From an uncultured delta proteobacterium (GTDB lineage Bacteria; Desulfobacterota; Syntrophia; Syntrophales; UBA8958): a stretch of 64,000 nucleotides of DNA. Positions 11,091 to 55,686 of this stretch are shown here, in pieces. A model generated the notes under the pieces. It was not told where the DNA came from and made no database searches. It saw only the letters and a program-made list of their open reading frames with translations. A program made the translations under genes and the position numbers. Positions within the stretch are counted from its first letter, which is position 1; every line of letters begins with the position of its first letter. The stretch is from positions 62,001-126,000 of the forward strand of contig CAISJV010000001.1 in NCBI GenBank assembly GCA_903885795.1. Direction: 5' to 3'.

Positions 11091-12440
11091 TCAGCCGCTT
11101 CTGGCCAGACGTCGCTCCAGACGGGCAATGCGGCGCCGGAGAACCTCTCTTTCCGTTTCGAGGGCCGACAGCGGCAGAATTTGCAGGGCCTGGCAAGCAA
11201 GATTCAGGGCCTGTGTATAGTTGTGAGTCCGGTGTTCGTACCACTTGGCCAGCTCGACGAGGGCAAAAGCATCGTCAGGGTCCCGGGCGATCATCTCTCC
11301 CCATATTTCCGCAGCCTGGGGCCATTCACCCGCCCGTTTATGGATTAAAGACAGCAGACGGCAGGCCTGCCGCACCGTTACCGGGCAGGAGGCGCTCACC
11401 AGATTGCTCAGTATCCGGCGCGCCCCGACCATGTCTCTCCGGTGCATAAGCAACCGGGCCGCCGCCAAAAGATCCGGGGGATGTCGCAGGGAGGGACCCG
11501 TTCCTTCCACTGCAATCATTTCCGTGAGATGGGCAGTCAGTGCCGCCATGGAAAGAACATCAAGGCGATTATGGAGGAATACGTCCGCCATCAGCCGACC
11601 ATCCCGGCGTTTCAGCCAGTCGAAATAGCGCTGGGGGATCTCGTATCCCGGTACGTCGCCCTCCCGCTCCAAGGATAATATGGCCCCTTCGATAGTACCG
11701 AGGCGGACATTTTCGAGACGATGCCGGAGGAGTCGGCGGGAAGGGTGGAGAAGATCAAGATGGGGCAGACCCCCAAGGGGGTCGGCGAGGCGGTTCAGGA
11801 TGAAGCGTGCTGTCAGGAGGTTGACATCGAAGGCCTTGCCATTGAAGGTAACGAGGAACTGCCGGTCTTGAACCAGCTCCCGGAGGAACACCAGGGCCGC
11901 CCGCTCCTCGGAATAATCTCTCATAAAGAGCTGTTTCATGACAAAACGTGACCCTTCGAACCAGCCCACACCGATGAGAAAGGCCACCGTCCCCGTACCG
12001 CCGGACAGGCCCGTCGTCTCCGTATCGAGAAAGACGCCCCGGGTATAGTCGAGACCGGCCAGGACGCCGTCATTGGCCAGCGTGGAGACACAGGTCATGT
12101 CCAGAGGAGAGAGATCACCGATACAGCGGCAACCGTGATGGTGGGAGATGCCCCACATGGTCTCGACGCAGAAAAAACGGCCGCCCGCCGTCGTAATCTC
12201 CCCTCCGGAAACGCATTCCTCCAGGGGACGAGACGGACCATGGAATGAAGAAGGCGAGGACTCCCTTAGGCTTTCGGGGCGACGGGCAAGAACGGCATCG
12301 ATCCGCTTCCGCAAATCACCGAGTTCTGCGGCCCGCGGCGATTCTCCTCCCCGCGTCCTGCCCCCGCCGGGAACAGGAACTTCTCCGGGAGGAACCGCCG
12401 CTTCTCCCGTCAGACGATGGAGCCGTTTAATTACGCTCAT
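11091..12440 (-). CDS. RNase H-fold exonuclease, YprB/MrfB type
   Basis: The 449-residue product carries a DnaQ-like/RNase_H_2 exonuclease core (about 135-300): FLDTETTGL supplies the first acidic pair, FNGKAFDVNLL the second motif, and HNRLDVLSM the final Asp. The C-terminal third is helical and TPR-like. This matches Bacillus subtilis YprB (MrfB), which acts with the helicase YprA (MrfA) in repair of mitomycin C damage. An MrfA-like helicase is encoded at 22134-24494 on the same strand. It is probably transcribed after the acyl-CoA synthetase and Smr genes (66-nt gap). No strong ribosome binding site is visible. Confidence 0.82.
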   Translation of the reverse strand: MSVIKRLHRLTGEAAVPPGEVPVPGGGRTRGGESPRAAELGDLRKRIDAVLARRPESLRESSPSSFHGPSRPLEECVSGGEITTAGGRFFCVETMWGISHHHGCRCIGDLSPLDMTCVSTLANDGVLAGLDYTRGVFLDTETTGLSGGTGTVAFLIGVGWFEGSRFVMKQLFMRDYSEERAALVFLRELVQDRQFLVTFNGKAFDVNLLTARFILNRLADPLGGLPHLDLLHPSRRLLRHRLENVRLGTIEGAILSLEREGDVPGYEIPQRYFDWLKRRDGRLMADVFLHNRLDVLSMAALTAHLTEMIAVEGTGPSLRHPPDLLAAARLLMHRRDMVGARRILSNLVSASCPVTVRQACRLLSLIHKRAGEWPQAAEIWGEMIARDPDDAFALVELAKWYEHRTHNYTQALNLACQALQILPLSALETEREVLRRRIARLERRLARSG

Positions 12441-12506
12441 AACAAAAAGACAATGACATGTACAAACCTCACCTCATAGCGCATGGCCTGATCTATTGCC
12501 CATTGC

Positions 12507-13247
12507 CTATTCACGTTTCCCCCGGGTGTAGGGCCTGAACAGCACGTAGGTGGCCCCCGTTCCGCCGTCGCAGGAGCGGGCGCTGGCATAGGCAAAAACC
12601 CGTTTGCGCCAGACGCCGCCGGTCAGCCATTCGACAACCTTCTTTTTCAGGACCGGCTCAGCGGGAGAAGACAGCCCCCGGCCATGAATAATCAGCACCC
12701 CCGTTTTTCCCGTCATGACGGCCTCTTTCATAAACCCGTCGAAGATCTCTTTGGCCTCGACAACGGTCAACCCGTGGAGATCGATATGGGACTGGATGGA
12801 AAAATCCCCGGCATGGAGACGCCGGGCATACTCGGAGTGGATGTTGTAGCCCGTTCCTTCGATGTATTCCGGGGTCAGGGAAAGGATGAAACCTTCTCCC
12901 GTGGTCACAAGCTTCGTCAGTTGCTCTAAGGCTTCCCGATTTTCGTCCACGATTGGCGTCCCCGGAAAGGGCCCGCGGGGGTTATTCCGCAGGACTTCCC
13001 GTTCCCTTCCTTTTGTCAGGGGGGCCACGTCCTGCATGGCCTCGATAAAAATCACCCTTTCCTCTTCCGGTTTCGTCACGGTCGCAGCGGCGCCTCCTTT
13101 TCGCAACACTGTCTTCCGGAGGGACTGAAGCTGCTGCTGAGGGGGAGTCGCTCCCGGCCTATCCTTGAGCAGCCCCTTGATCCCCTCAAAGGGATTGTGG
13201 GACAGCGGACCCGGTGTCATATCCTGGCAGGGCGTCTTTTTTTTCAT
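12507..13247 (-). CDS. Smr-domain protein
   Basis: The 246-residue protein ends in a Smr (small MutS-related) domain, about residues 155-240, with the hallmarks DLHGLTVVEA and IIHGRGLSS followed by a GGTGATYV-like end. The N-terminal half is charged and probably disordered. Stand-alone Smr proteins are nucleases or nicking enzymes acting on DNA branches or on collided-ribosome mRNA, depending on the family member; which applies here cannot be told. It starts 15 nt after the acyl-CoA synthetase stop, so the two are surely co-transcribed. Confidence 0.85.
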   Translation of the reverse strand: MKKKTPCQDMTPGPLSHNPFEGIKGLLKDRPGATPPQQQLQSLRKTVLRKGGAAATVTKPEEERVIFIEAMQDVAPLTKGREREVLRNNPRGPFPGTPIVDENREALEQLTKLVTTGEGFILSLTPEYIEGTGYNIHSEYARRLHAGDFSIQSHIDLHGLTVVEAKEIFDGFMKEAVMTGKTGVLIIHGRGLSSPAEPVLKKKVVEWLTGGVWRKRVFAYASARSCDGGTGATYVLFRPYTRGKRE

Positions 13248-13262
13248 TTGAAAGGGTACCTC

Positions 13263-15938
13263 TCAGCGCAACCGCAGACTTACCCGGGTCAGATCATCGG
13301 GCGTCTTTTCGGGAATCATGCCGAGCTTCTCGCAGAGTTTGACCATCTTCCGGTTCGACGGCTGGATGTAGCCGTAAAACTCCTCCAGGCCTTTCTCGTC
13401 GGCGATGCCGATGAGAATATCGAGCAGTTTGTAGGCCAGCCCCTGGCCCTGAAAATCGTCGTGCACAAGAACGGAAAATTCACACTTTTTGAAGTCCGCT
13501 TCGATATTGAAGCCCCCCATGCCGATGAGCTTTCTCCCGCCATTTCCCCTGATCTCGGCGACCATCACCATTTCCCGGTCGTAATCGATATTGCAGAAAC
13601 GGACGTGCATTTCGTGGGTGATCGTTTTGATGGTCTGGTAGAATCGCTCCCGCAGGGTTTCTTCCGAAAGCGAGGTAAACATCTCATGCTCCAGGGGTTC
13701 GTCTTCAGGCCGGATAGGCCGCAAAACAGATTCCCGGCCGTCCGCAAGCTGCCAGCGGACAACATAGCGGGTAGGATAGGGAGTGACGAGGAGGTGGGGA
13801 TAGAGAGTTGTATTATCTATCTTTTCCCGGTCCAGGATGATCCTGACATCCAGGGCCTGTGCCTGGCCGTTGCTCACCGCGACGGGGTTCATGTCCATGG
13901 AGAGAATCTCGGGAAAGTCCACGATAAGATTTGAAAAACTGACGATGATGCTTTCAAGCTGGTTCAGATCCGCCGGCGCCTTGCCCCGATAGCCCTGGAG
14001 CATGGTGTAAACCTTCGTTTCTTCCATAAGCCGCCGGGCCAGGGTCTGATTGAGGGGCGGCAGGGCAATGGAGAAATCCCGGAAGATCTCGACGCCGATA
14101 CCCCCCATGCCAAAGAGCATCACAGCGCCATAGCGCTTGTCCTTTTTCGCCCCGAGGATCAGCTCATAATCGATGACCTCGATCATCTTCTGGACGACAA
14201 CGCCCCGGATAGCCGCCTGGGGCTGAAACTTGGCCACCCGCTCCCGAAGCCGTGCATAGGCGCTCCGCAGGGCCTCGTCGGAGTTGATTCCCGTCGCCAC
14301 CCCGCCGACGTCCTGGCGGAAAATAATATCGGGAGAAACGATCTTCAGGACCACGGGATAACCGATACCCCGGGCATAAGCTACCGCCTCATCAGGAGAG
14401 GCGGCGATATGGGTCGGCACAAAGGGAATACCGTAATTGGTCAAAAATTTCTTGGCGTCCTCCTCCGTCAGGACATGATTTCCCTCCCGGAGGACCCGGC
14501 GTATAATGGATTTGAGGTGGTTTTTCGGCGGCGCCTCGTTGACGGGGAGCTCGGCGGGGGTTTCGTGGAGGAGCTGCAGGTTCCGCTCGTAGTTGTACAT
14601 GTAGACGTAGGTCCGGGCCGCTTCTTCCGGTGTTTCGTAGGTGGGGACGCCGCTCCGGAGAAGCAGTTCCCGACCCCGGATCACTTCTTCCCGCCCCATC
14701 CAGGCGGCAAGGACGGGCTTGGCGGCATTTCGGGTCAGGTCCACGATAGTAGCGGCCAACTCTTCATCGCCGACAGCGTTTTGAAGGCCGAAGACCACAA
14801 GGACGCCGTCAACATTCCCATCAGCGAGGCACAACCGGACGGCTTTTTCGTAGCGATCGACGTCGGCCGTCCTCAGGAGATCAATGGGGTTGCCCCGCTT
14901 CCCGTAGGATGGCAGGATGGCCGCCATTCCCTCCAGAGTTTCCGGGGAGAGATCGGCGAGGATGCCGCCGGATTTGGCAAGACGACTGGCAGCCAGCAGA
15001 CCGGCCCCGGCGGCGTTGCTGACAATAGCCAGCCGGGGTCCCCGGGGCAGATTCCGAGAAAAGAGGACATTAGCGGTGTTGAAGATATCCTGGGTCTCCT
15101 TGACCCGGACCACGCCGACCCGGCGGAGGACGGCGTCGAAGATGTCTTCGGAACCGACCAGGATGTCCGTATGGGAGATTCTCTCTCTCCCCGGAGCGTC
15201 GTCGCCAAGCCGGGCCGGCTTGAGGAGAACAATGGGCTTATTCCGGGCAAACCCCCGGGCAGCGCCGATGAACTTCCGGAGGTGGCCGATGTCATCCTCC
15301 ATGTAGATCATAATGCTCCGGGTGTGGGGATCGGTCCCCAGAAAGTCGATCAAATCCCCGAAATCGATGTCGATGGCCGAACCCAGAGAGGCCAGCATGC
15401 TGAAACTGATATGGGCGCTGACTCCCCAGTCGAAGAGAATCTTGCCGAAGGCGTTGCTCTGGGTGAGAAAGGCGATTTTCCCCGGTTCGGGGGCGCCGCT
15501 TAGACGGGCGGCGCAAAGACCGGCATGGGGGCGGATGATGCCGAGACAGTTAGGTCCAAGGATTCGCAGGGGATACTGCTTCTTGATACGAAGAATATCC
15601 TCTTCAAGGTTCCGTCCTTCCTCCCCCACCTCCCGGAAACCGGCGGAGATGATGATCATGCCGTCCACCCCGGCCCGGCCGCAGGCTTCGACAACGCCGG
15701 GAACCGTCGGGGCGGGCGTCGCTACCACGGCCAGATCGATATGTTCGGGGATCTCCGCGACGCTTTGATAACAGGGCCGGTCGCCGATAGCTGAGCGTCC
15801 AGGATTGACGAGGAAGATCTTTCTTTCCCGGCAGGCCAGCAGATTATTCAGGATCGCGTTTCCCGGTGATCCCTCCTTATCACTGGCGCCGATCAGGGCA
15901 ATCGTCCCAGGATCAAACATGCGTCTCAGGTTATCCAT
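13263..15938 (-). CDS. ADP-forming acyl-CoA synthetase fused to GNAT acetyltransferase
   Basis: This 891-residue multidomain protein has: a CoA-binding domain (about 1-130, FDPGTIALIGAS); succinyl-CoA-ligase-like domains (130-460) with a candidate phospho-His in SHTDILVG; an ATP-grasp domain (about 480-700, with VVLKIVSPDI and VVVQKM); and a C-terminal GNAT domain (about 725-885, with the acetyl-CoA loop QGQGLAYKL). The layout matches NDP-forming acetate-CoA ligase or protein lysine acetyltransferase Pat. It could make ATP from acetyl-CoA in syntrophic metabolism, or acetylate proteins. The ATG at 15936-15938 has AAGGA 9 nt upstream; a GTG eight codons earlier is also open. Confidence 0.88.
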   Translation of the reverse strand: MDNLRRMFDPGTIALIGASDKEGSPGNAILNNLLACRERKIFLVNPGRSAIGDRPCYQSVAEIPEHIDLAVVATPAPTVPGVVEACGRAGVDGMIIISAGFREVGEEGRNLEEDILRIKKQYPLRILGPNCLGIIRPHAGLCAARLSGAPEPGKIAFLTQSNAFGKILFDWGVSAHISFSMLASLGSAIDIDFGDLIDFLGTDPHTRSIMIYMEDDIGHLRKFIGAARGFARNKPIVLLKPARLGDDAPGRERISHTDILVGSEDIFDAVLRRVGVVRVKETQDIFNTANVLFSRNLPRGPRLAIVSNAAGAGLLAASRLAKSGGILADLSPETLEGMAAILPSYGKRGNPIDLLRTADVDRYEKAVRLCLADGNVDGVLVVFGLQNAVGDEELAATIVDLTRNAAKPVLAAWMGREEVIRGRELLLRSGVPTYETPEEAARTYVYMYNYERNLQLLHETPAELPVNEAPPKNHLKSIIRRVLREGNHVLTEEDAKKFLTNYGIPFVPTHIAASPDEAVAYARGIGYPVVLKIVSPDIIFRQDVGGVATGINSDEALRSAYARLRERVAKFQPQAAIRGVVVQKMIEVIDYELILGAKKDKRYGAVMLFGMGGIGVEIFRDFSIALPPLNQTLARRLMEETKVYTMLQGYRGKAPADLNQLESIIVSFSNLIVDFPEILSMDMNPVAVSNGQAQALDVRIILDREKIDNTTLYPHLLVTPYPTRYVVRWQLADGRESVLRPIRPEDEPLEHEMFTSLSEETLRERFYQTIKTITHEMHVRFCNIDYDREMVMVAEIRGNGGRKLIGMGGFNIEADFKKCEFSVLVHDDFQGQGLAYKLLDILIGIADEKGLEEFYGYIQPSNRKMVKLCEKLGMIPEKTPDDLTRVSLRLR

Positions 15939-17573: not shown

Positions 17574-17669
17574 TGCATTGCTTGTCAGGAACCAAACATG
17601 GTCAGGAGACAGATAGCAGCAGGGGAAACCTTCTTGACTCGAAGCCTGTTTTATGGTCAGGGGACAACA

Positions 17670-17897
17670 CATAGCGTTCAGGCGCCCCGCGTAGTAGGGG
17701 TGAAAAGGGAAGGCGGTGCGAATCCGCCGCATGGAGGCCGATGCTGTAAGCCCCCCAACGCCGGTTTAAGGAAACCGGTTGTTGATGTTTTTCCGCAATG
17801 TCCCGGAGACAAACAAGGTCTGCGGGTGAAAAGTCACTGACCTAAAGGGTTGGGAAGGCGAGCGGGAAAGGGGTAAGCCAGAAGACCTGCCTGATCG
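17670..17897 (+). ncRNA. Cobalamin (B12) riboswitch
   Basis: The leader holds the conserved landmarks of a cobalamin riboswitch in order: GGGAAGGCGGTGCGAATCC (17708-17726), GCTGTAAGCCCC near 17743, AGTCACTG near 17832 and the B12-box GCCAGAAGACCTGCC (17877-17891). It is followed at once by an intrinsic terminator (17921-17965), the arrangement expected for transcriptional OFF control by adenosylcobalamin. The controlled gene is the zinc-dependent dehydrogenase at 17985, an unusual target. Confidence 0.88.
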
Positions 17898-17920
17898 ATG
17901 CAAAAGCGGCAACGCCCAGA

Positions 17921-32570: not shown

Positions 32571-35500
32571 ATGGTGGAAAATAAGAAAATCCTGAAGATA
32601 TTCATTTCATCACCCGGCGATGTGCGTCCCGAGCGTCTCATCGCGGAACGGGTGGTGCAGCGGCTGGACCGCGAATTCACCTATCACTGCCGAATCGAGC
32701 CAGTGCTGTGGGAGCGTAAGCCCCTGGTTGCGACCAAGCACTTCCAGGATGATATCCCCCTGCCTTCCTCTTCCGACATTGTTTTGGTCATAGTTTGGAC
32801 AAGGCTCGGCACGCCGCTTCCCAGCCCCAGATTTTTTGGCGCCATGACCGGCGCCAGGGTTACAGGCACTGAATGGGAATTTGAGGAGGCATACAAAGCC
32901 AATGCCGAGCACGGTACTCCGGACCTGCTCGTGTACCGCAAGACAGCCCCCAGTTTGGTCAGCCTTCGCGGTGACGAGGCGGAAGGACGGCGGCTTCAAG
33001 CGGGCATGGTTGACGATTTTATCCACCAGTGGTTCATAGATTCCCGGGACGGCACCTTCAAGGCAGCATCGCACACCTTTGAACATCCGGCTGAATTGGA
33101 GGAGTTACTTGAAAGTCACCTCCGAGCCAAAATTATTGAACGTCTTGGCGATGTACCAGAGATGCACGGTATTCGCTGGCACAAGGGATCGCCGTTCCGC
33201 GGTCTGGAATCATTTGAGATCGAGCATGCCCAGGTTTTTTTCGGCCGCACCCGTGCCCGCCACGAACTGCGCCAGAACCTGACGGCAAGACTTGAGGCCG
33301 GCTGTCCCTTCCTTCTGGTTATGGGGGCCTCCGGCAGCGGTAAGTCGTCTCTCGTCAAAGCCGCCATGCTGCCTGATCTGCAATTGCCGGGCATGCTTCC
33401 GAACTTCGGGAAGGTTCATTTTGCCGTAATGCGGCCTTCCGACCATGGTGGTGATCCTGATATGGCGCTGGCTGCCGCGCTATTGTCGGCCAAGGCGCTG
33501 CCAGGGTTGCCGCCGGGGTTGGAAAAACTTGCCGCGGCCCCTCCCGACGAGCTGGCACGGCAGGTCGTACTGGAGTTGCAGGCATTGTCCCAGGCAGCGC
33601 AACTGGCGCCGCCCTGGGAAGCGCGCCTGGTGCTGGTCGTCGATCAACTGGAGGAAATTTTTGCAGAGACGGTGACCTCGACTCAACGAACCGCATTTGT
33701 TGCCAAAATGGAAACCCTCGCCCGGAGCGGTGTGGTGGTAATGGCAACAATGCGGAGCGACTTTTTCGACCGGTTGGAAACCCTGCCGCAGCTTGTCGCA
33801 TTAAGCGAGGGGATCGGTCGCACCCTGCTGTTGTCCCCCGACGACGCCGAAATTGGTCAGATCATCCGTCAGCCGGCTCAGGAGGCGGGATTGACATTCG
33901 AGGTGCGTGATGGCATCCCCCTCGACGAAACCCTGCGCATGGCCGCTGCTGCCGAGCCGGGAGTGCTTCCTTTGCTGGAATTCACCCTCGATCAATTATG
34001 GCACAAGAGGACCGACGAGGGGCAGCTTACCATCGCCGCTTATGATGATCTCGGCGGCCTGAAAGGGGCAATCGGCCGGCGGGCAGAAGATATCTTCCTT
34101 GCCCAGCCGGCAGAAGTGCGGTCAGCCCTGCCCGCTGTTCTGTTCGCCCTGGCCCGGGCTGAACAGGGCGAAAAGGGTCGTATCATGGCGAACTCCGCTC
34201 CCATGGCAGGTTTTGCCGCCGGCAGTCCTGAACGCTGTTTGGTGGATGCCCTGCTGGCGCCTGCTGCCCGACTGCTTGTGACGAACGATAAAGGCGACCT
34301 GCGAGTTGCCCACGAGGCGCTGCTGTCCCACTGGGCGCGCGCCCATGAATTGGTCGAATCTGACCGTGCCGACCTGCAAGTTCGCGAAAAGCTGCTGGGA
34401 GCATTTGCGGAATGGAGCAAAGAGTCCGGACGCAAGCGGGATAGTCTGCTGTTGCAGGGCGGTCTGCCATTGTCACAGGCCGAGGATCTGCTGATACGAC
34501 GGCGCGGTGAACTCAAGGCCGAGTTAATAGGCTACATTGAGGCTTCAACCGCCTATAATCAGCGCAAGATCCGTCGCCTCAAGATCGCAGTCGTTGCCTT
34601 CGCCCTCCTCGCCGTTATTGCCTGTGTAGGCTCCTGGTTCGGGTTTACCGGGCAGGCTGCGGCAATTAAACGGGAACGTCAGGCGCTGTTAAACGAGTCC
34701 CGCTTTCTGACCAAGACTGCTCTGGACATCGCCCAGACAGGAATCCATGAACGAACCAGTCTGGTCATTGAGGCAGCCCTGCCGAAGGATATTGACCGGC
34801 CGGACCGGCCGGAGTCACGGGATGCACTGGCTGCGCTCGCACGGATTTCGGAGGAGGACAGATTATCCGGTATATTGAATGGACATAAAGGTCCTGTTGA
34901 TTTCGCGTCCTTCAGCCAGTCCGGCAATCGTGTGTTGACGGCCTCCGAAGATAACACCGCACGATTGTGGGATGTCCGCAGCGGCGCTCAGCTGGCTGTA
35001 CTCGCGGGACATGGCGACTGGGTCGTTTCCGCGACATTTAACCCGTCGGGTGATCGTGTAGTCACTGCTTCTTTCGATAATACGGCACGCCTGTGGGATG
35101 CCAAAAGCGGCGCCCTGCTCAAGGTGCTTACCGGACATGCAGACAGGGTTCTGTTCGCCGCCTTTAGCCCGTCGGGTGATCGTGTAGTCACTGCTTCTTT
35201 CGACAATACGGCTCGCCTGTGGGATGCCAAAAGCGGCGCCCCGCTTGCCGTGCTCACCGGACACGGAGGCCCGGTCTTATCCGTCGCCTTCAACCCATCG
35301 GGTGATCGTGTAGTCACTGCTTCTTTCGATAATACGGCGCGCCTGTGGGATGCCAAAAGCGGCGCCCTGATCAAAGTGCTCACCGGACATGCCCACTGGG
35401 TTAAATCCGCCGTGTTCAGTCCTTCCGGCGATCGCGTGGCTACAGCTTCTTATGACAAGACTCTCCGCCTGTGGGACGCCAAAAGCGGCGCCCAGCTTAA

Positions 35501-37118
35501 AGTGCTTGCCGGACATGCCGATGCCGTCAATTTTGTCGCTTTCAGTCCTTCCGGCGATCGCCTGGTTTCCGCTTCTTATGACAAGACGGCTCGCCTGTGG
35601 GATGCCAAAAGCGGCGCCCCGCTTGCCGTGCTCGCCGGACATGAGGACTGGGTCAGAACAGCCAGGTTCGACCCATCCGGCAACCGGGTAATCACCGCTT
35701 CTTATGACAGGACAGCGCGGCTCTGGGATGTAAAAAGCGGCGCCCAGCTGGCAGTATTTGCCGGACATGAGGACAGAGTGCTCTTTGCTGATTTCAGCCC
35801 GCCCGGTGATCGTGTCATTACGGTTTCTTCGGACAATACGGCGCGGCTTTGGAATACACTCAAGAACCCGCAGCTCGCAGTGCTCACCGGGCATGGGGAT
35901 ATGGTCCGGTCCGCCGCATTTAGCCCTGCGGGCGACCAGGTGGTCACCGCCTCTGCCGACGGGACTGCACGGCTTTGGGACTCCCGCACCGGCGCACACC
36001 TCGCGCTGCTGGCCAAACACAAGGATTGGGTCCGTTCCGCCGTGTTTAGTCCGTCCGGCGATCGTGTGGTCACTGCTTCCGGTGACAATACGGCGCGGCT
36101 GTGGGACACCCGCACCGGCGTCCAGCTCGCAGTGTTTACCGGTCATAACGGTTCGGTTCTTTCCGCTGTTTTCAATTTGCCGGGGGATCTCGTTCTCACG
36201 GCTTCTTCCGACAGCACGGCCCGCGTGTGGAATGCCCGCACCGGCGCCCAGCTGGCAGTATTTGCCGGGCACAAGGGAACGGTTGAAACAGCAGCGTTCA
36301 GCCCCTCCGGCAATCTTGTGGTTACTGCCTCGGGTGACAACACGGCACGGCTGTGGGATGCCAAAAAAAGCACCCTCCTGGCAGTGCTTACCGGCCATGA
36401 GGGACCGGTATATTCCGCCGCCTTTAACCCTGCGGGAGACCGGGTGGTTACGGCTTCCCGAGACAAGACGGCGCGGCTGTGGGACGTCCGCACCGGCGCC
36501 CAGCTGGCAGTGCTTGCCGGCCATGAACGCACGGTTTTGTCAGCCCTGTTTAGCCCCTCCGGTGATCGTATAATTACAGCTTCCCGGGACAAAACAGTGC
36601 GGCTGTGGGACTCCCTTACCGGCGCCCAGCTTGCCGTCTTCCCCGGCCATGGGGCGGCGGTTCATTCCGCCGTATTCAGTTCTGCGGGCGATCGTGTAGT
36701 AACGGCTTCGGAAGATAAAACAGCGCGGCTGTGGGATGTACGACTACTGACTGCCACTGATCGCGACCTTCTCGACTATCTGCAGATTGCCAAACTGCGG
36801 TTTTTGACCGATGAAGAAAGACGGAGATTTTTTCTGTCCGAATCAAAGGCAGTGGCGGCGCGACCATTCAGCAAGGGAGGCTCTAAAGACCCGTCTATCC
36901 ATCGGCAACTGGCTGAACGCTACGAACGTGGTGACGGAGTTCCTGTGGATTTGGAAAAGGCTTTGTACCAGCATGCATTGGCAGCGCGACTTTATGAAAT
37001 AGCCGGTGATGCGGAAAACACCGCTTACGAAACTGCCCGCCGCGGCACTATTGCCCGCAACCTGCCTTTCTCCGCGGCGGTAAAGATCTGGCGGGAGGCA
37101 AAAACATGGCGCCCTTGA
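32571..37118 (+). CDS. DUF4062 / STAND-type NTPase / membrane segment / 15 WD40 repeats
   Basis: The 1515-residue protein has, in order: a DUF4062-like domain (about 5-120, FISSPGDVRPER); a STAND-type NTPase (about 205-480) introduced by SPFRGLESF, with Walker A GASGSGKSS (252-260) and Walker B LVLVVDQLEE (about 354-363); a helical region; one hydrophobic segment (about 670-693) with basic residues before it; 15 WD40 repeats of 42 residues (about 769-1394), each with GH...D.T.RLWD; and a Sel1-like helical tail. Positive-inside would put the NTPase in the cytoplasm and the propellers in the periplasm. STAND proteins are switch NTPases that oligomerise on sensing a ligand; many act in phage defence or programmed death. 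The WD40 part is the likely sensor, and the DUF4062 domain may be effector or adaptor. Its trigger is unknown. Confidence 0.85.
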   Translation: MVENKKILKIFISSPGDVRPERLIAERVVQRLDREFTYHCRIEPVLWERKPLVATKHFQDDIPLPSSSDIVLVIVWTRLGTPLPSPRFFGAMTGARVTGTEWEFEEAYKANAEHGTPDLLVYRKTAPSLVSLRGDEAEGRRLQAGMVDDFIHQWFIDSRDGTFKAASHTFEHPAELEELLESHLRAKIIERLGDVPEMHGIRWHKGSPFRGLESFEIEHAQVFFGRTRARHELRQNLTARLEAGCPFLLVMGASGSGKSSLVKAAMLPDLQLPGMLPNFGKVHFAVMRPSDHGGDPDMALAAALLSAKALPGLPPGLEKLAAAPPDELARQVVLELQALSQAAQLAPPWEARLVLVVDQLEEIFAETVTSTQRTAFVAKMETLARSGVVVMATMRSDFFDRLETLPQLVALSEGIGRTLLLSPDDAEIGQIIRQPAQEAGLTFEVRDGIPLDETLRMAAAAEPGVLPLLEFTLDQLWHKRTDEGQLTIAAYDDLGGLKGAIGRRAEDIFLAQPAEVRSALPAVLFALARAEQGEKGRIMANSAPMAGFAAGSPERCLVDALLAPAARLLVTNDKGDLRVAHEALLSHWARAHELVESDRADLQVREKLLGAFAEWSKESGRKRDSLLLQGGLPLSQAEDLLIRRRGELKAELIGYIEASTAYNQRKIRRLKIAVVAFALLAVIACVGSWFGFTGQAAAIKRERQALLNESRFLTKTALDIAQTGIHERTSLVIEAALPKDIDRPDRPESRDALAALARISEEDRLSGILNGHKGPVDFASFSQSGNRVLTASEDNTARLWDVRSGAQLAVLAGHGDWVVSATFNPSGDRVVTASFDNTARLWDAKSGALLKVLTGHADRVLFAAFSPSGDRVVTASFDNTARLWDAKSGAPLAVLTGHGGPVLSVAFNPSGDRVVTASFDNTARLWDAKSGALIKVLTGHAHWVKSAVFSPSGDRVATASYDKTLRLWDAKSGAQLKVLAGHADAVNFVAFSPSGDRLVSASYDKTARLWDAKSGAPLAVLAGHEDWVRTARFDPSGNRVITASYDRTARLWDVKSGAQLAVFAGHEDRVLFADFSPPGDRVITVSSDNTARLWNTLKNPQLAVLTGHGDMVRSAAFSPAGDQVVTASADGTARLWDSRTGAHLALLAKHKDWVRSAVFSPSGDRVVTASGDNTARLWDTRTGVQLAVFTGHNGSVLSAVFNLPGDLVLTASSDSTARVWNARTGAQLAVFAGHKGTVETAAFSPSGNLVVTASGDNTARLWDAKKSTLLAVLTGHEGPVYSAAFNPAGDRVVTASRDKTARLWDVRTGAQLAVLAGHERTVLSALFSPSGDRIITASRDKTVRLWDSLTGAQLAVFPGHGAAVHSAVFSSAGDRVVTASEDKTARLWDVRLLTATDRDLLDYLQIAKLRFLTDEERRRFFLSESKAVAARPFSKGGSKDPSIHRQLAERYERGDGVPVDLEKALYQHALAARLYEIAGDAENTAYETARRGTIARNLPFSAAVKIWREAKTWRP
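34875..36748 (+). repeat. 15 tandem 126-nt repeats (WD40 coding)
   Basis: The period is 126 nt. Repeats 2-4 are nearly identical at DNA level: the stretch starting GGGTGATCGTGTAGTCACTG begins at 35048, 35174 and 35300. Such identity implies recent duplication or gene conversion, common in sensor arrays under changing selection. Confidence 0.9.
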
Positions 37119-37166: not shown

Positions 37167-37499
37167 CTACCTGGAACCTGCCTCCTTGCTGTTGCAACTC
37201 CAGGTATACGAATCGGCAGGATTTGCCAGTCTGGCAGAATAGGTAGCATCATACTGCAACTTGCAGACAGCGTTCATGTCCACGGGGTACTCCCGCTTGC
37301 CGAGGGTGCAGCGCCAGGAGTTCCCCGTGCTGCGGGTATGGGATATGCCGGCAGAATCGCCGTAGGCCTTCCGGCAATATGCAAGAACGTCGATACTGCG
37401 TCCGGTGCTAGCGTCGAAGTTGCGCTTGTCCTGTGCCCAGGACAAGGTCAGGACCGCTGATAAACACAATACCGTCAGTGCCAAGGTCAACCTTTTCAT
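37167..37499 (-). CDS. Small secreted four-cysteine protein
   Basis: The ATG at 37497-37499 opens a clear signal peptide (MKRLTLALTVLCLSAVLTL, cleavage near SWAQ), so I prefer it to the much longer upstream frame, which overlaps the next gene. The mature part (about 88 residues) has four Cys (AYC, WRC, AVC, WSC) that may form two disulfides. I do not recognise a family. It lies between the WD40 protein and a glycosyltransferase on the other strand. Confidence 0.65.
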   Translation of the reverse strand: MKRLTLALTVLCLSAVLTLSWAQDKRNFDASTGRSIDVLAYCRKAYGDSAGISHTRSTGNSWRCTLGKREYPVDMNAVCKLQYDATYSARLANPADSYTWSCNSKEAGSR

Positions 37500-37513
37500 C
37501 ACAGTTCCACTTC

Positions 37514-38638
37514 CTATGCTCTGCAGTTGTGACTCAAAATATCTGACGGTTCCGCAAAAAGTCCATTTCCTGCGATCGGCTTCATCCTTCCTGTTTCGGC
37601 TAAAAGCTTTGCCGTCGTTGCCAGCGACCACCGCTTTTTGATGGTGGCGCGGATTTCCGTGCTGTGAGCGGCGATAAATTGCCGTCGCCGCTCCGTCGCC
37701 GCCTCGTCACGCATCATCCTTGCCAGGGCGTTAGTATCTCCGAGAGGATAAAGAAAATCGTCTGCCCGATCTCCGAACAGGGTTTGGGCAATAACCTTGT
37801 GGGCGGGAATGTCTGACATTAGCGGTGGACAACCGGAATACGCCGATTCGATTGGACTCATGCTGAATCCCTCATAGGCTGATGAGCACACATACGCAAA
37901 ATACGGGGTATAATCAAAGGCGCCTGCCGACGGAACGCGGTCTAGGCGGACTCTCCCCGTCTCCTTGCTGTCTTCGGGGATCTCTTTTTCAATAAGCCGC
38001 ATTTGTTCGGCGTCTTCCCTGTTGTCAAAGACGTGGCTGGGTAACAGCCTGAGATACAGCATGGCTCCATTCTCCAGAGCGGCCTCCCGAAAGGCGCTTG
38101 CAATATCGTAAAACCTCTTTCTTGGCGTCAATCGTCCGGAAGAAGCAAAGATCATGGGAATGGTTCGCCGGGGTGACGGGTGGACGGGAGGCAATGCTTC
38201 CGGTATAGGCACACCAACTGTGACCACCTCGGCAGAATAGCCGTCCGCGGCAAGAGAGTCCTTGAGGAACTCTGTCGAGGCCAGCAACTTTGCCCCCATT
38301 TCAACAACGGCGGCGACATTGTCAAAATGGTGGGGCCAGTAGTCATGGATGTAAACCCAGACTGGAATGCAACGTGCCTGGCACCATTCCAGCAAAGCAA
38401 GACTGAACTCCCACTGTACTTCTATATGCAGGTTTATCCCGATGATAGAGGTGGCATCGGAGTGTTTTTTGTCAAGTTCCCTGGTAAAATCGGTGGGCGT
38501 ACCGGAAAAGCTGAGATAGTCGGCCCTACCTTCTCCCGTCGCCGGGAATAAGCGCAGAATCTCGGCAATCATGACTGTTACGCCAGTAATGTGAGATAAT
38601 GAAAAATGATGTACCAGCAGCATCTTTGACCGTTCCAC
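37514..38638 (-). CDS. Glycosyltransferase-like protein, GT-B fold
   Basis: 374 residues. The N-terminus MLLVHHFSLSHITGV and the central FASSGRLTPRKRFYD (nucleotide-sugar-binding opening of GT4 enzymes) are followed by EGFSMSPIESAYSGCPPLMS, an E-x7-E-like motif. It probably transfers a sugar to a surface polymer; donor and acceptor are unknown. Starts: GTG at 38638 or ATG at 38623, neither with a strong ribosome binding site. The stop lies 15 nt before the small secreted protein gene. Confidence 0.78.
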   Translation of the reverse strand: MERSKMLLVHHFSLSHITGVTVMIAEILRLFPATGEGRADYLSFSGTPTDFTRELDKKHSDATSIIGINLHIEVQWEFSLALLEWCQARCIPVWVYIHDYWPHHFDNVAAVVEMGAKLLASTEFLKDSLAADGYSAEVVTVGVPIPEALPPVHPSPRRTIPMIFASSGRLTPRKRFYDIASAFREAALENGAMLYLRLLPSHVFDNREDAEQMRLIEKEIPEDSKETGRVRLDRVPSAGAFDYTPYFAYVCSSAYEGFSMSPIESAYSGCPPLMSDIPAHKVIAQTLFGDRADDFLYPLGDTNALARMMRDEAATERRRQFIAAHSTEIRATIKKRWSLATTAKLLAETGRMKPIAGNGLFAEPSDILSHNCRA

Positions 38639-38681: not shown

Positions 38682-40811
38682 TTACTTGCCGGGGAAATCA
38701 TAATTTCTTCTGACCCGGTAAGTGCTAAACTTTCCAAAACCCTTTGCATAATTAACTTTTCCCACATAGTCAGAATAAAACTCCTCAACCTGATAAGCAG
38801 CGGCCAAGGCGGCAAATGCCTGGCTGCAATATATCTGCCCCGGCGGAGTAATCGGTTCTATCCTTGCCGCCCGGCTGACATGACTGCCGGTGTACATTTC
38901 CTGCCCCGTAACGGGATCGCTGCAGTGGTACACAGGCCCTGCATGCAGGGAAATGCGGAGATTCAACCCCTTGGGCAGCCCTTTTGTTTCCCAGGGGGTC
39001 CGGGCAACGATATCGGCAACATCAAGGGCGAACACACCTGCATCGCGTACACTCTTGAAGACGAAATATAATCCGTCTCCCCAGGTATTTCTTGTTTCAG
39101 GTTTATAATTGCTACGGGCAATAAAATCGGCGATAGACCCCATGAATTCTTTTATAAAACCGGGGATATACCCTTCGTGCATCTTGCTGTAACCTACGAC
39201 ATCCCCGAAAAAGATCGCCATGATTTGCGTCTTGAAAGCCTGTTCAGTTTCTTCGCCCGTATGGGGGGAACTTTTTTTCGCCGCCCTTTTCGTTTTTTTT
39301 GCAATGCTTATAGGGATACTGATTATTTCGCCTTCATAACCGATAGACTTCCACCACCTTACCGTTTCGCAAGTCGGGCTTTGTTCCCTTTTCCCATCTC
39401 TGCTCATCGCTGAAATAAGATAGAGTCTGGTATCCAACTGTCTGGCTTTGAGTAAAGCCAGTCCAAAGAGGAATTGATTGGTATAAAAGAAGGTGTCCTT
39501 CATTTTCCCTATCGGCCATTCGGAGGCAAAGGAAACCCTTTCCTCTTCATTCAAGGTATTGAATGTGTCTTCAAAAAGTCTTTTCCAGTCCATGCCGCCA
39601 GTGGCGACGGTGCATTCCAGTATGAATCTATCCTTGTTAAAAGGTAGGGCAACATAGGCTTCACATCCTTTTTCCATGAGTGTATTCAGAAAGCACAAGT
39701 CATGGCCCGCCTTTGCGGAAGAATAACCGATGCCTATGCCATTTTTATCTATTATGTCGGAAATCCGGTTATCTATGTATTCGATATCTTCGATGATTAT
39801 ATCGCTTACAAAAACTGCTACGCCTGGAAGCTGAAGGGCCTTTTCAATGCTACTGCCGTCGATGCCAAGATACTCGATCAAAAAGCGGGCATTTTTTCTT
39901 GTTGCCTGCAAATCCTGGGGCATGCCCTTTCCCAGTTTGCCGGTGCGTTCGTAGTACTCCCGTGCTTTCCCGTAATCTTTCAGGATGAGATACGCCTCTG
40001 CCAGTGTGGCGGTGAGATAGTATTCGGCATTACTCAATTCTTCGGGATCGGCCAGTTTCTCTAAACAGTCCTTGCGCACCATGGACGCTATTTTATTCGC
40101 TGTTTTGGACTTGCCGAGAAGTGTCGCCAGTGTGGCGGTATTGATCCCCGGATAATAACCACCCGTACTTGCGAAGCATTTCTGATAAGTTTCAAAAGCC
40201 AGAGAAAGATATTTTTTTATGGTTTCAGGGTCCCGGGATTGCAACCATTCTTCCTTATACGTTCTGGCAAGGATCCCGAGAGTTTCCTCGTCATCATGTC
40301 CTGCTTCCACCAATTGAATCAAGATATCCCTGGCAGATTCAAGCACTCCCAAGTCGGCAAGAACCAGAGCTTTTAGCTGGAGAAGCCGCGTGTCTTGCGG
40401 CCAGGAAGACAGCCCCGTTTCTATTGCATCGTATGCCTGTAAGGAGTCGCCCTTTCTCCGTAAGTTGCTTCCGAGCTGCCTGAAAGAATCAACAGTCAAT
40501 AATTCGGCATAAGTAGTATCCCCGGACGCCGGCGGGATTATACTGCATCCGGAAGCAACCAGCATTTTTATTGATTCGGCCAGGGTCTTACGATCATAGT
40601 CTTTCTCTTCCTCAGGCAACTCGGCGTATGGAACAAGGCAGGGATGCTCTCTTAAGACATCATCTCTCTTCGGCCCATATCTCCAGCCTTCGGATATTCT
40701 CTTCCGAGCCCAGTTATCATGAATGCTGACGGAAAGTTTCTCGATGATTTCTTCCAGGTATGGAGCAAGTTTTACTTTTGAAGTGTCAATAGGCTTAGGT
40801 TCGTATTTCAA
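38682..40811 (-). CDS. RyR-domain / TPR-S / SLOG-like / class III nucleotide cyclase
   Basis: About 709 residues. Residues 1-95 fit a RyR (ryanodine-receptor repeat) domain: YEPKPIDTSKV, HDNWARKRISEGW, YGPKRDD, HPCLVPYAELPEEEKDYDR. Residues about 115-330 are TPR-S (TRAFs-binding) repeats with the hallmark YYPGINTATLATLLG. About 340-500 has GIGYSSAKAGHD and CEAYVALPF, which resemble a SLOG-type nucleotide-sensing domain. The C-terminal class III cyclase (about 545-690) keeps both metal Asp (FFGDVVGYSK, WGDGLYFVF) and the Arg of VSRAARIE; Ser replaces the usual Asn. It should make cAMP or another cyclic NMP on a stress cue. I chose the TTG at 40811 because GGGAGG lies 6 nt upstream; ATGs upstream are in frame but less likely. 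Confidence 0.8.
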   Translation of the reverse strand: MKYEPKPIDTSKVKLAPYLEEIIEKLSVSIHDNWARKRISEGWRYGPKRDDVLREHPCLVPYAELPEEEKDYDRKTLAESIKMLVASGCSIIPPASGDTTYAELLTVDSFRQLGSNLRRKGDSLQAYDAIETGLSSWPQDTRLLQLKALVLADLGVLESARDILIQLVEAGHDDEETLGILARTYKEEWLQSRDPETIKKYLSLAFETYQKCFASTGGYYPGINTATLATLLGKSKTANKIASMVRKDCLEKLADPEELSNAEYYLTATLAEAYLILKDYGKAREYYERTGKLGKGMPQDLQATRKNARFLIEYLGIDGSSIEKALQLPGVAVFVSDIIIEDIEYIDNRISDIIDKNGIGIGYSSAKAGHDLCFLNTLMEKGCEAYVALPFNKDRFILECTVATGGMDWKRLFEDTFNTLNEEERVSFASEWPIGKMKDTFFYTNQFLFGLALLKARQLDTRLYLISAMSRDGKREQSPTCETVRWWKSIGYEGEIISIPISIAKKTKRAAKKSSPHTGEETEQAFKTQIMAIFFGDVVGYSKMHEGYIPGFIKEFMGSIADFIARSNYKPETRNTWGDGLYFVFKSVRDAGVFALDVADIVARTPWETKGLPKGLNLRISLHAGPVYHCSDPVTGQEMYTGSHVSRAARIEPITPPGQIYCSQAFAALAAAYQVEEFYSDYVGKVNYAKGFGKFSTYRVRRNYDFPGK

Positions 40812-40886
40812 GGTCGACCTCCCGATTAATCGGGTCCCTCCTAACATGGAAGCCCTCATAAAAAGCTTATTATAACAGAGCATTCC

Positions 40887-41903
40887 TTATTTAAACAGCC
40901 CGGCAAAGCGCCATTTTTTCCGCTTTTTCCAATTCCCCTTGAGATATGCATAATTAGCCAGTAGCGGCAGAACCGAAGTCGCCTCCGCGTAGACCATTTT
41001 TTCATAGGCCACATCTACCTTTCCCCAGGATTGGGCCTCCCTCAGGGTGGAGCTGGAGCAGGCGCCGTCCCGGGCGTCCGCCACGGTAATCTGGATGGCG
41101 TATTTATGCATGGGGACTTCCTTGCCGAGGATCTCGGCGCAGATGACCGTATCCTGCACAAAATTCTTGGGAACGCCACCGCCGATCATGAGCAATCCCG
41201 TGGTCCCCGCCTTGATCTTGATCATTGTCAACTCACGGAAATCTTTCACCGAATCGATTGATAAGCAGTTATCGGGCCGTTCATGCTGATGCAGAACGAG
41301 GCCGAATCCAGCGCTGCTGTCGGAAAAGGCGGGGCAGAAAATGGGGACGTCATTTTCATAGGCCGCCTGCACAAGGGAATCTTTCTTCTTGGCGCGGGTG
41401 GTCAGATATTTCCCCATCTCCCGGATGAACTCACGGGAGGAGTAAGGTCTGGGGACCAGGGCGTCGGATATTTCCTTGACGGTGCGGTCACAGCTCTGCA
41501 ACTGCGCCTCGTCGATATAGGTGTCGTAGATCCGGTCGATGTATAAGGAGCGGAGCGTCTGGTCATCAGCATGGGGCGAACCCTGATAGTGAAGGAAGCC
41601 GAGGGCCTCGAAGAAGTCCATATCCACAATCGCCGCGCCCGTGGCGACGATGGCGTCCACCATGTTGTTTTTCACAAGATCGACATAGATCTGCATACAC
41701 CCGGCGGCAGAAGTGCTGCCGGCAATAGTCAGAATCACGGCGCATTTTCTGTCTTTCAGCATCCGGTCGTAGATGTCGGCGGCATCGCCTAAGTCCCTGG
41801 CAGTAAAAGACATTCCTTTCATGGCATCAACAATGCCTACGGCGTCAAAAGACTTGATGTCGATATGCCGGACCGGCTTTTTCAAAAAATCTTTTTTCTT
41901 CAT
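40887..41903 (-). CDS. Deoxyhypusine synthase-family protein
   Basis: 338 residues with the NAD-binding Rossmann pattern of deoxyhypusine synthases (LTIAGSTSAAG, IVATGAAIVDMDF, GGGVPKNF) and the conserved C-terminal DARDGACSSS. Eukaryotic and archaeal enzymes modify eIF5A; bacterial relatives may make homospermidine or aminobutylate other substrates. Whether the catalytic Lys is at the usual place needs an alignment. It abuts the cyclase gene (stop 76 nt before its TTG) on the same strand. Confidence 0.85.
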   Translation of the reverse strand: MKKKDFLKKPVRHIDIKSFDAVGIVDAMKGMSFTARDLGDAADIYDRMLKDRKCAVILTIAGSTSAAGCMQIYVDLVKNNMVDAIVATGAAIVDMDFFEALGFLHYQGSPHADDQTLRSLYIDRIYDTYIDEAQLQSCDRTVKEISDALVPRPYSSREFIREMGKYLTTRAKKKDSLVQAAYENDVPIFCPAFSDSSAGFGLVLHQHERPDNCLSIDSVKDFRELTMIKIKAGTTGLLMIGGGVPKNFVQDTVICAEILGKEVPMHKYAIQITVADARDGACSSSTLREAQSWGKVDVAYEKMVYAEATSVLPLLANYAYLKGNWKKRKKWRFAGLFK

Positions 41904-54726: not shown

Positions 54727-55686
54727 TCACTCGGAGATGGCGTTTCCCCCCATCTGCTTGGCTCGACGAAGGGCCGCCCCGGCTTCGCTGAAGAGGCCAT
54801 CCGCATCCTGCTCCGGTTTCATCTGGGCTACCCCTACTGAAACAGTAGGGTGGTCCACAATCTTTTCCTCCGCCATAATGGGTGTCGCCTGGTCAATGCT
54901 CTTGAAAAGGCGCACGGCAATTCCTCTGGCCGTTTCCATGTCCGCATCGGGCAGAAGAATGGAAAACAGGTCCGAATCATACCTGGCAATTATCTCCGTG
55001 GACCGGAGATTTTGGTTCAGACCGCAGGCCATAGAATATAGAACCCGGTCTCCGCATCGGCGGCCGTACTTGTGGTTGAAAGCCTTGAAACCATCGATAT
55101 CGATGAGCACAAGGCTCAGGGGCTTGCCGGAATGTGAAAAGCGCTGGCACTGACGTCCCAGCAATTGATCAAACCATTTCCGGTTCGGAAACCCCGTCAG
55201 GGCATCGACATTCCCGTATTGACGTTCCTCCTGATCCAGATCTACCCCCCCGGACACCACCGAATCGGCGTGGCGGAGACGTTTAGTCAGGGTGTAAAGG
55301 AGATTACAGGCGATGGCATGGGAGGAATGGACAAGGGACCACAGAATATCCTCATCCATCGCCACCAGTTGACAATCTTCATCAGCCACGACAAAAGCCG
55401 TCGTCGGTTGCTGATCGATAACAGACATCTCGCCGACACTCTCGCCGGTACCAAGAACCGTCACGGGATCACTATCCAAGGTGTTGAGATGAATACGAAG
55501 CCTTCCCTGCATAATAAAATAGACTGTCCAGTTGGATTGCCCGGGCCGGAAGATAATCTCCCCCGCCTTCACAGTGTGGACCTTGCATAAATCAAAGATT
55601 CCCTGAATAGATTCAAGATTTATGGATCGAAAAAGACTAATTCTCTTCAACAGATTCGGATCGATACAAGCTGCCGTGTCTTCCAT
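54727..55686 (-). CDS. Cyclic-nucleotide-binding domain plus degenerate GGDEF
   Basis: 319 residues. Residues about 10-125 are a cNMP-binding (Crp-like) domain (FRPGQSNWTVYFIMQGRLRI, VGEMSVIDQQPTTAFVVA). A GGDEF-fold domain (about 160-310) follows, opened by VDALTGFPNRKWFD; its active-site loop reads RYDSD instead of GGDEF, so cyclic-di-GMP synthesis is unlikely. It may sense a cyclic nucleotide and act by GTP or protein binding. The target is unknown. It converges with metG across the palindromic element. No strong ribosome binding site. Confidence 0.82.
   Translation of the reverse strand: MEDTAACIDPNLLKRISLFRSINLESIQGIFDLCKVHTVKAGEIIFRPGQSNWTVYFIMQGRLRIHLNTLDSDPVTVLGTGESVGEMSVIDQQPTTAFVVADEDCQLVAMDEDILWSLVHSSHAIACNLLYTLTKRLRHADSVVSGGVDLDQEERQYGNVDALTGFPNRKWFDQLLGRQCQRFSHSGKPLSLVLIDIDGFKAFNHKYGRRCGDRVLYSMACGLNQNLRSTEIIARYDSDLFSILLPDADMETARGIAVRLFKSIDQATPIMAEEKIVDHPTVSVGVAQMKPEQDADGLFSEAGAALRRAKQMGGNAISE

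Follow-up and report, generated by a model that had tools for sequence, protein, structure and literature searches.

The closest described counterparts of the gene analysed here belong to two defence systems, Thoeris (the TIR protein ThsB with the SIR2-SLOG protein ThsA) and Pycsar (the cyclase PycC with PycTM or PycTIR), to the phage protein RyDEP and to the kinase ASK1 (MAP3K5). The gene lies on a 64-kb stretch of contig CAISJV010000001.1 from an uncultured delta proteobacterium (Syntrophales), which as a whole we refer to as the window, and it encodes a single protein in which a ryanodine-receptor-type (RyR) domain, a TPR-S domain, a SLOG-fold domain and a class III nucleotide cyclase follow one another. 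This protein, which we refer to as the sensor cyclase, is made of known modules in a new combination, and it may relay a TIR-type ADP-ribose signal into a cyclic mononucleotide (cNMP), with the RyR domain as receptor, a reading that we favour tentatively and judge to fall slightly short of probable.

RyDEP grips the TIR-made signals 2'- and 3'-cyclic ADP-ribose (2'cADPR and 3'cADPR) through H75, W78, H100 and D117, the first and last of which form its catalytic pair, and among eight further phage homologues that were assayed six bound 2'/3'cADPR and none cleaved the signals (PMC13232231); the word cyclase is absent from the main text of this preprint. The window protein falls in this Pfam family (PF02026) too and has identically spaced counterparts of all four ligand residues, yet RyDEP is a phage counter-defence protein, whereas in the window the domain is encoded by the host, as part of a cyclase protein. 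In Thoeris, the accessible part of one report describes a pocket for 3'cADPR in the SLOG domain of ThsA (PMC11204291). TIR genes likewise stand beside a SLOG-fold protein in part of the sensor-cyclase family, where ADP-ribose signals would be expected, but here the module joined to SLOG and RyR is a cyclase and not an effector, and the output, instead of being that of a ThsA-type SIR2-SLOG or TM-macro protein, would be a second messenger. The window also differs in having no adjacent ThsB-type TIR gene, a ThsB_TIR pair being found only on another contig.

With Pycsar the locus shares a class III-type cyclase and a defence-like context, including an annotated effector in one plasmid operon, but the sensors are RyR, TPR-S and SLOG domains, the window cyclase gave no match to the PADLOC PycC model, and no cNMP-binding domain was found on the TIR neighbours, either among the Pfam matches listed or with a cNMP profile. 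ASK1 offers a likeness in its central regulatory region and in the Pfam match to TPR-S, although ASK1 signals to a kinase and the window protein to a cyclase. Burroughs and Aravind (2020) are said to have predicted TPR-S as a sensor of NAD-derived signals. Nucleoside triphosphate (NTP)-dependent conflict systems include a cNMP cyclase as signal generator in a predicted system, though the cyclases described in the accessible part of that work are tied to VMAP/vWA modules (eLife.52696), and in the accessible parts of eLife.52696 and eLife.70394 neither 'TPR-S' nor 'RyR' occurs. Among the literature matches listed there was no report of an RyR-cyclase relay; an earlier description of the architecture is possible.

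Domain architecture of the sensor cyclase

The open reading frame (ORF) runs on the minus strand from an ATG at 40883 to a stop at 38682 (38682..40883, 733 amino acids). The original prediction began the gene at 40811, where the codon is TTG (residue 25 of the 733-residue ORF), and this agrees with the N-termini of several relatives (including L010, L016, L017 and L046), whose own residue 1 aligns with window residue 25; the TTG is probably the true start, giving a protein of 709 residues. Four Pfam matches of the 733-residue protein all exceed the curated cut-offs: an RyR (R12-type) domain at 40539..40805 (minus strand, residues 27-115; PF02026, E 5.2e-32, 110.4 bits, cut-off 27.4), a TPR-S domain at 40125..40436 (minus strand, residues 150-253; PF20308, E 2.3e-19, 70.3 bits, cut-off 27.6), MAP3K_TRAF_bd at residues 182-317 (E 2.8e-8) and Guanylate_cyc at residues 552-723 (E 5.3e-5), the last within a class III nucleotide cyclase domain at 38700..39236 (minus strand, residues 550-728). 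Profile searches thus recovered the N-terminal RyR-type domain, the TPR-S domain and the cyclase of the original prediction, while its middle region matched no Pfam family in the window protein and no consistent family among 61 members.

The predicted structure of the whole protein (65 sequences) reached a predicted local distance difference test (pLDDT) score of 89.6 and a predicted template modelling (pTM) score of 0.82. Residues 123-384, with TPR-S inside, align with the central regulatory region of ASK1 (5ulm, Z 20.6, root-mean-square deviation (rmsd) 3.2, 221 aligned), and the cyclase domain superposes on soluble guanylate cyclase (8hbh, Z 22.2, rmsd 2.1, 176 aligned). Because the fold search with the whole protein was filled by cyclases, the middle domain (39294..39827, minus strand, residues 353-530) was folded separately, with a pLDDT of 90.5. 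Its best structural alignments were to YpsA (Z 15.4, rmsd 3.0, 151 aligned), DprA (Z 13.1) and ShosA (Z 11.8), followed by molybdenum-cofactor (Moco) carriers (Z 9.5-10.4) and LOG proteins (Z 9.2-9.4), all of which we take to be members of the SLOG superfamily, with other folds starting from Z 6.2. Foldseek E-values were weak, none at or below 0.001: the top row was the unrelated GcpE (1.1e-3, probability 0.66) and the second DprA (1.4e-3, probability 1.00), and a sequence search of the PDB with the SLOG alignment gave no match. The SLOG-like segment of the original prediction is borne out by fold, with its motifs eroded in the window copy. Those conserved in the SLOG domain across the family are GH, a PRFP loop and the Glu of FLEA; the idea that their erosion is special to RyR-bearing members was rejected, the motif His being absent in 5/23 of these against 8/54 of the others (p 0.51), four of these eight being gaps in incomplete rows.

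The four-domain protein is real and recurrent. A scan of species genomes gave 91 loci, of which 80 were kept, spanning cyanobacteria, acidobacteria, chloroflexi, planctomycetes, desulfobacteria, proteobacteria and others, with genes picked by a greedy ORF rule and no gene finder. Among 65 members scanned, 61 had TPR-S, 57 the cyclase and 21 RyR, and with a profile made here RyR was found inside the same gene at 22/80 loci. The order of domains, for which the original prediction knew no defined role and for which we found none, is thus not peculiar to the window.

Conserved pocket and catalytic residues

In the window RyR domain, H55, W58, H80 and D97 stand at a spacing of 0/3/25/42, identical to that of H75, W78, H100 and D117 in RyDEP. 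Across 24 RyR domains (the window, an interrupted copy in a sister species and 22 loci) H55 and W58 are kept in 24/24 and H80 and D97 in 23/24. Phage proteins also came up in the searches: 100 records matched, and the 30 listed align only in or around the RyR part, many of them hypothetical proteins and possibly RyDEP-like anti-defence genes.

The cyclase has both metal-binding Asp residues named in the original prediction (D561 and D603), and Asp occupies each position in 73/77 aligned members; these rows exclude truncated proteins and L001-L004 and L007, and the tree used below was made from 73 rows by a quick method. The four exceptions (L051, L052, L057 and L080, all Verrucomicrobiota) are probably inactive pseudo-cyclases, since Glu and Lys stand in place of both metal Asp. 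Near the base site the window has N599 and W601, R674 is kept and S670 replaces the usual Asn; the roles of these positions are those we presume from cyclases in general. At the position four residues ahead of the second Asp, Lys is typical of adenylate cyclases and Glu of guanylate cyclases, whereas the family has Asn in 54, Glu in 18 and Asp in 3 of 77 members. The conservation of N599 and the nearby stretch is partly by construction, as the peptides used in the contig scan ([ATM][KR]NTWGDG and IEPITPPG) contain them.

TIR and cNMP-receptor genes cluster around part of the family

Two profiles, derived from neighbours observed at the family loci, served to find TIR genes, and hits with E<1e-17 were counted as strong. 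The neighbourhood survey called for by the original prediction gave a divided answer, with a strong TIR gene within 3 kb at 22/80 loci; looser hits would raise this to 32/80. Density per 100 kb fell from 12.7 at 0-1 kb to 3.6 at 1-2 kb and to 0-0.5 in the bins of 2-10 kb; 24 of the 27 strong TIR genes within 10 kb lay within 2 kb (binomial p 9e-12), and at several loci the TIR gene lies on the same strand at a gap of 13-115 bp. As the profiles were built from the same neighbours, we also used Pfam TIR_2, which is independent of them, and two later loci. TIR_2 matched 19/129 of the nearest genes against 2/89 distant ones (one-sided p 0.0012; nine near-duplicate loci excluded from both sets), and the two RyR-bearing loci found later, outside profile building (L097 and L098), each have a TIR gene ~30-50 bp off on the same strand. 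Four later family genes without an RyR hit (L105, L106, L107 and L108) had no TIR gene in their short flanks. On the tree, TIR adjacency needs 17 changes.

The sister of the window in that tree is L009 from Solidesulfovibrio alcoholivorans (Shimodaira-Hasegawa-like approximate likelihood ratio test, SH-aLRT, 97), where a TIR gene stands on each side of the family gene, and these two are the only TIR_2 matches of that genome at E<=1e-6. At 12221-13666 of this locus an alpha/beta-hydrolase fused to TPR-S also lies directly downstream of the RyR-cyclase and adjoins a TIR-WD40 gene. By eye, nearly all aligned TIR domains retain the usual Glu of the active helix, the first of the two in L071 being an exception. 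Ten loci with weak TIR hits at up to 3 kb were left out of the counts (L031, L044, L045, L048, L062, L064, L072, L075, L080 and L082); in L045, L048 and L072 the hit is an ORF that runs opposite to the family gene, whilst those of L031 and L062 look TIR-like and may be genuine TIR genes.

Genes for cNMP-binding proteins also cluster at part of the family, with seven within 200 bp (six loci) against eight in the remaining flanks, by a profile built from two neighbours (L039 and L074) that are themselves among the seven. The cNMP-binding neighbours scanned with Pfam comprise a CRP-like regulator (L071), a kinase (L047), a patatin (L074) and a TPR protein (L039). In L071 five same-strand genes form an operon, each separated from the next by -1 to 75 bp (exclusive of stop codons): an ABC-transporter/cNMP-binding gene, a CRP-like gene, the RyR-cyclase, a cNMP-binding gene and a TIR-TIR gene. 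On a plasmid of Priestia aryabhattai, one strand carries the gene of an annotated Pycsar effector, two genes of unknown function, a gene for a cyclase that resembles the TPR part of the family in its C-terminal half, and a free RyR gene of 94 amino acids with all four pocket residues, followed 1.4 kb beyond by a TIR gene on the opposite strand. RyR and cyclase therefore occur both fused and as neighbours. The conflict-system setting proposed originally thus holds for part of the family, that with TIR, Pycsar-type, patatin and cNMP-receptor neighbours, whereas most loci have no adjacent TIR gene.

Two further loci may be mentioned here. In L079 (8877-13566) the first few bases of the family gene overlap with a patatin gene and a convergent downstream gene ends in RyR, and in the window itself a cNMP-binding protein is encoded at 54730-55686, ~14 kb from the sensor cyclase, a possible receptor that is unlinked to it.

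A possible relay between two messengers and its alternatives

The ligand, the direction of signalling, the product and the effect on phage are what we infer in the following. A TIR-type protein would detect infection or damage and make an ADP-ribose-type signal such as 2'cADPR or 3'cADPR; for the window this signal maker could perhaps be the DUF4062-like STAND-WD40 protein encoded nearby, or ThsB-type TIR genes elsewhere in the genome. The RyR domain would bind the signal in its H/W/H/D pocket, and TPR-S may respond to that ligand or to a similar one derived from NAD, as may SLOG in copies that have kept it intact. Binding would realign the cyclase dimer to yield a cyclic mononucleotide, and this in turn would activate a cNMP-binding effector or regulator, such as a membrane protein, a patatin, a kinase or a CRP-type regulator. 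The original prediction had a sensor cyclase that might make a second messenger upon infection or damage, and it missed the probable input, an ADP-ribose signal made by TIR proteins.

The RyR-cyclase probably makes a cyclic-nucleotide alarm signal, and its place beside TIR genes in part of the family hints at an immune circuit that hands one messenger to another. If true, this would provide a function for host-encoded bacterial RyR domains, join two currencies of immune signalling, ADP-ribose cyclics and cyclic mononucleotides, in one protein, suggest an origin for phage RyDEP and bear on a long-standing question, the relation of cADPR to ryanodine receptors. More tentatively still, host RyR domains could be receptors for TIR-made cyclic ADP-ribose that convert it to an amplified cyclic mononucleotide, phage RyDEP-type proteins being captured copies of that host domain.

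Several observations weigh against the relay. No TIR gene was found in the 64-kb window with the two profiles (ORFs of at least 110 amino acids), its genome gave no TIR_2 or TIR match, and the ThsB-type TIR genes on another contig of the genome could have as their partner the putative SLOG-patatin effector encoded next to them. DUF4062 as a TIR relative is unsupported, hhalign giving probabilities of 31% (in an alignment that is out of register) and 0.3% against two sets of TIR domains, whilst these sets match each other at 98.8%. Across the family, 58/80 loci carry no RyR domain and 58/80 lack a strong TIR gene in the 3 kb around them (some with short flanks), and TIR genes are common in RyR-bearing genomes anyway (11/12 tested). 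A nearby TIR gene is more frequent at RyR-bearing than at RyR-free loci (11/22 vs 11/58, p 0.010; deduplicated 9/18 vs 10/53, p 0.015), an association not upheld on the tree, where three independent pairs on well-supported branches gave a median p of 1. Among seven genus relatives the sensor cyclase is found in one (G007), with its frame interrupted. The base-choosing residues of the window are unusual, with neither Lys nor Glu at N599, so that the product is not readable from the sequence. The window SLOG motifs are eroded (GH to SD, the PRFP loop gone, the Glu of FLEA to Asn), which would leave RyR as the likeliest ligand site in this copy; L036 and L071 likewise have a shortened or damaged SLOG domain and an intact RyR, a pattern that favours RyR as the ligand site in all three.

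RyR could remove the ADP-ribose signal instead of reading it, as the residues that correspond to the catalytic pair of RyDEP, H75/D117 (PMC13232231), are conserved in the family too. It would then shut the response off, clearing the TIR signal as a glycosidase or a sponge and limiting its own system, with sensing left to TPR-S and SLOG, and the free RyR gene of Priestia could work in this way. We hold this to be rather improbable: of the eight further phage homologues none cleaved the signals and six bound them (PMC13232231), and the loss of SLOG motifs beside an intact RyR in the window, L036 and L071 would be odd if SLOG were the sensor. The reverse direction of signalling, with a Pycsar-like order in which the cyclase is the upstream sensor, its cyclic nucleotide activates a TIR protein that depletes NAD+, and RyR, TPR-S and SLOG sense something else, we regard as unlikely. 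The accessible part of PMC11224242 describes PycTIR as a TIR effector of cyclases, 5/129 near genes match PADLOC PycTIR, 19/61 family cyclase domains weakly match PADLOC PycC (best 3e-8), and the Priestia operon holds its annotated Pycsar effector. However, PycTIR has a cNMP-binding domain (same part of PMC11224242), and none of the strong TIR neighbours matched the cNMP profile, nor was PF00027 among the Pfam matches listed for 10 TIR neighbours; the PycC model matched neither the window protein nor its cyclase domain, and the residues of the RyR pocket match those of a protein that binds cADPR.

Defence genes cluster in general. The sensor cyclase might accordingly belong to a conflict system and have some other ligand, with the TIR genes mere co-residents of defence islands, as the many loci without an adjacent TIR gene and the frequency of TIR genes in RyR-bearing genomes would allow. 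We consider this rather improbable as well, as the TIR density drops ~30-fold from the first kb to beyond 2 kb, which is sharper than a broad island would give, and the TIR genes lie at such short same-strand gaps at several loci. That the protein is an ordinary physiological sensor cyclase for redox or a metabolite, outside defence, seems highly improbable; many near genes are metabolic and TPR-S resembles that of ASK1, a stress kinase, but the family is patchy over many phyla and found, interrupted, in a single genus relative, the gene is inserted beside a core gene, and TIR, Pycsar and patatin genes are among its neighbours.

Distribution of the family and the window locus

The sensor-cyclase family is rare and patchy. 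A kinship search of 60 genomes, including that of the window, gave six with a match, one of these to a lone cyclase domain only, and the family was found in 5/395 genomes of the window's phylum and in 6/386 around a cyanobacterial genome (centres included in both). No relatives were confirmed in the viral contigs searched, and Escherichia coli genomes gave no match in a search for near-identical DNA only. Plasmid searches returned 11, 14, 4 and 2 records, nearly all partial, the Priestia plasmid being the useful one.

The sensor cyclase is one of a four-gene cassette in the window, together with a glycosyltransferase-like gene (37514..38638, minus strand; Pfam hits below cut-off), a small ORF with a signal-peptide-like stretch by eye (37167..37631, minus strand) and a large gene for a DUF4062-like / nSTAND1 NTPase / WD40 protein (32571..37118, plus strand; PADLOC PDC-S60, 3.9e-9, in a PADLOC scan that covered two proteins among the window's neighbours). 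The DUF4062-like label of the large protein's N-terminus is our own, from its sequence; Pfam DUF4062 (PF13271) did not list the window protein and found one DUF4062 protein in the genome, other than this one. The cassette partner of the sensor cyclase is thus this DUF4062-like protein and no TIR protein, and a similar DUF4062-like domain is divergently adjacent at a second RyR-bearing locus, L024. Outside the cassette, 3 bp upstream of the sensor cyclase, is the core gene, deoxyhypusine-synthase-like (40887..41903, minus strand; NCBIfam 1,9-bis(guanidino)-5-aza-nonane synthase).

The same four-gene cassette, including the glycosyltransferase-like gene, is present in the sister species G007 on a contig without xseA, which ends before the N-terminus of the large STAND-WD40 gene. 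The pair of xseA and the deoxyhypusine-synthase-like gene is kept in 6/6 genus relatives whose locus was fetched, G007 included, and ~350 bases downstream of the pair in these six gave no sensor-cyclase match; G003 gave no xseA match. The cassette is therefore placed differently in the two species.

Elsewhere in the window's genome, contig C72 (L095, 7509-10239) carries a tandem pair of ThsB-type TIR genes and, after them, a gene whose product looks by its sequence like a SLOG-patatin fusion, and the locus as a whole reads as Thoeris-like. Away from these loci, the window contains a cobalamin riboswitch at 17663-17908 (Rfam RF00174, 72.5 bits).

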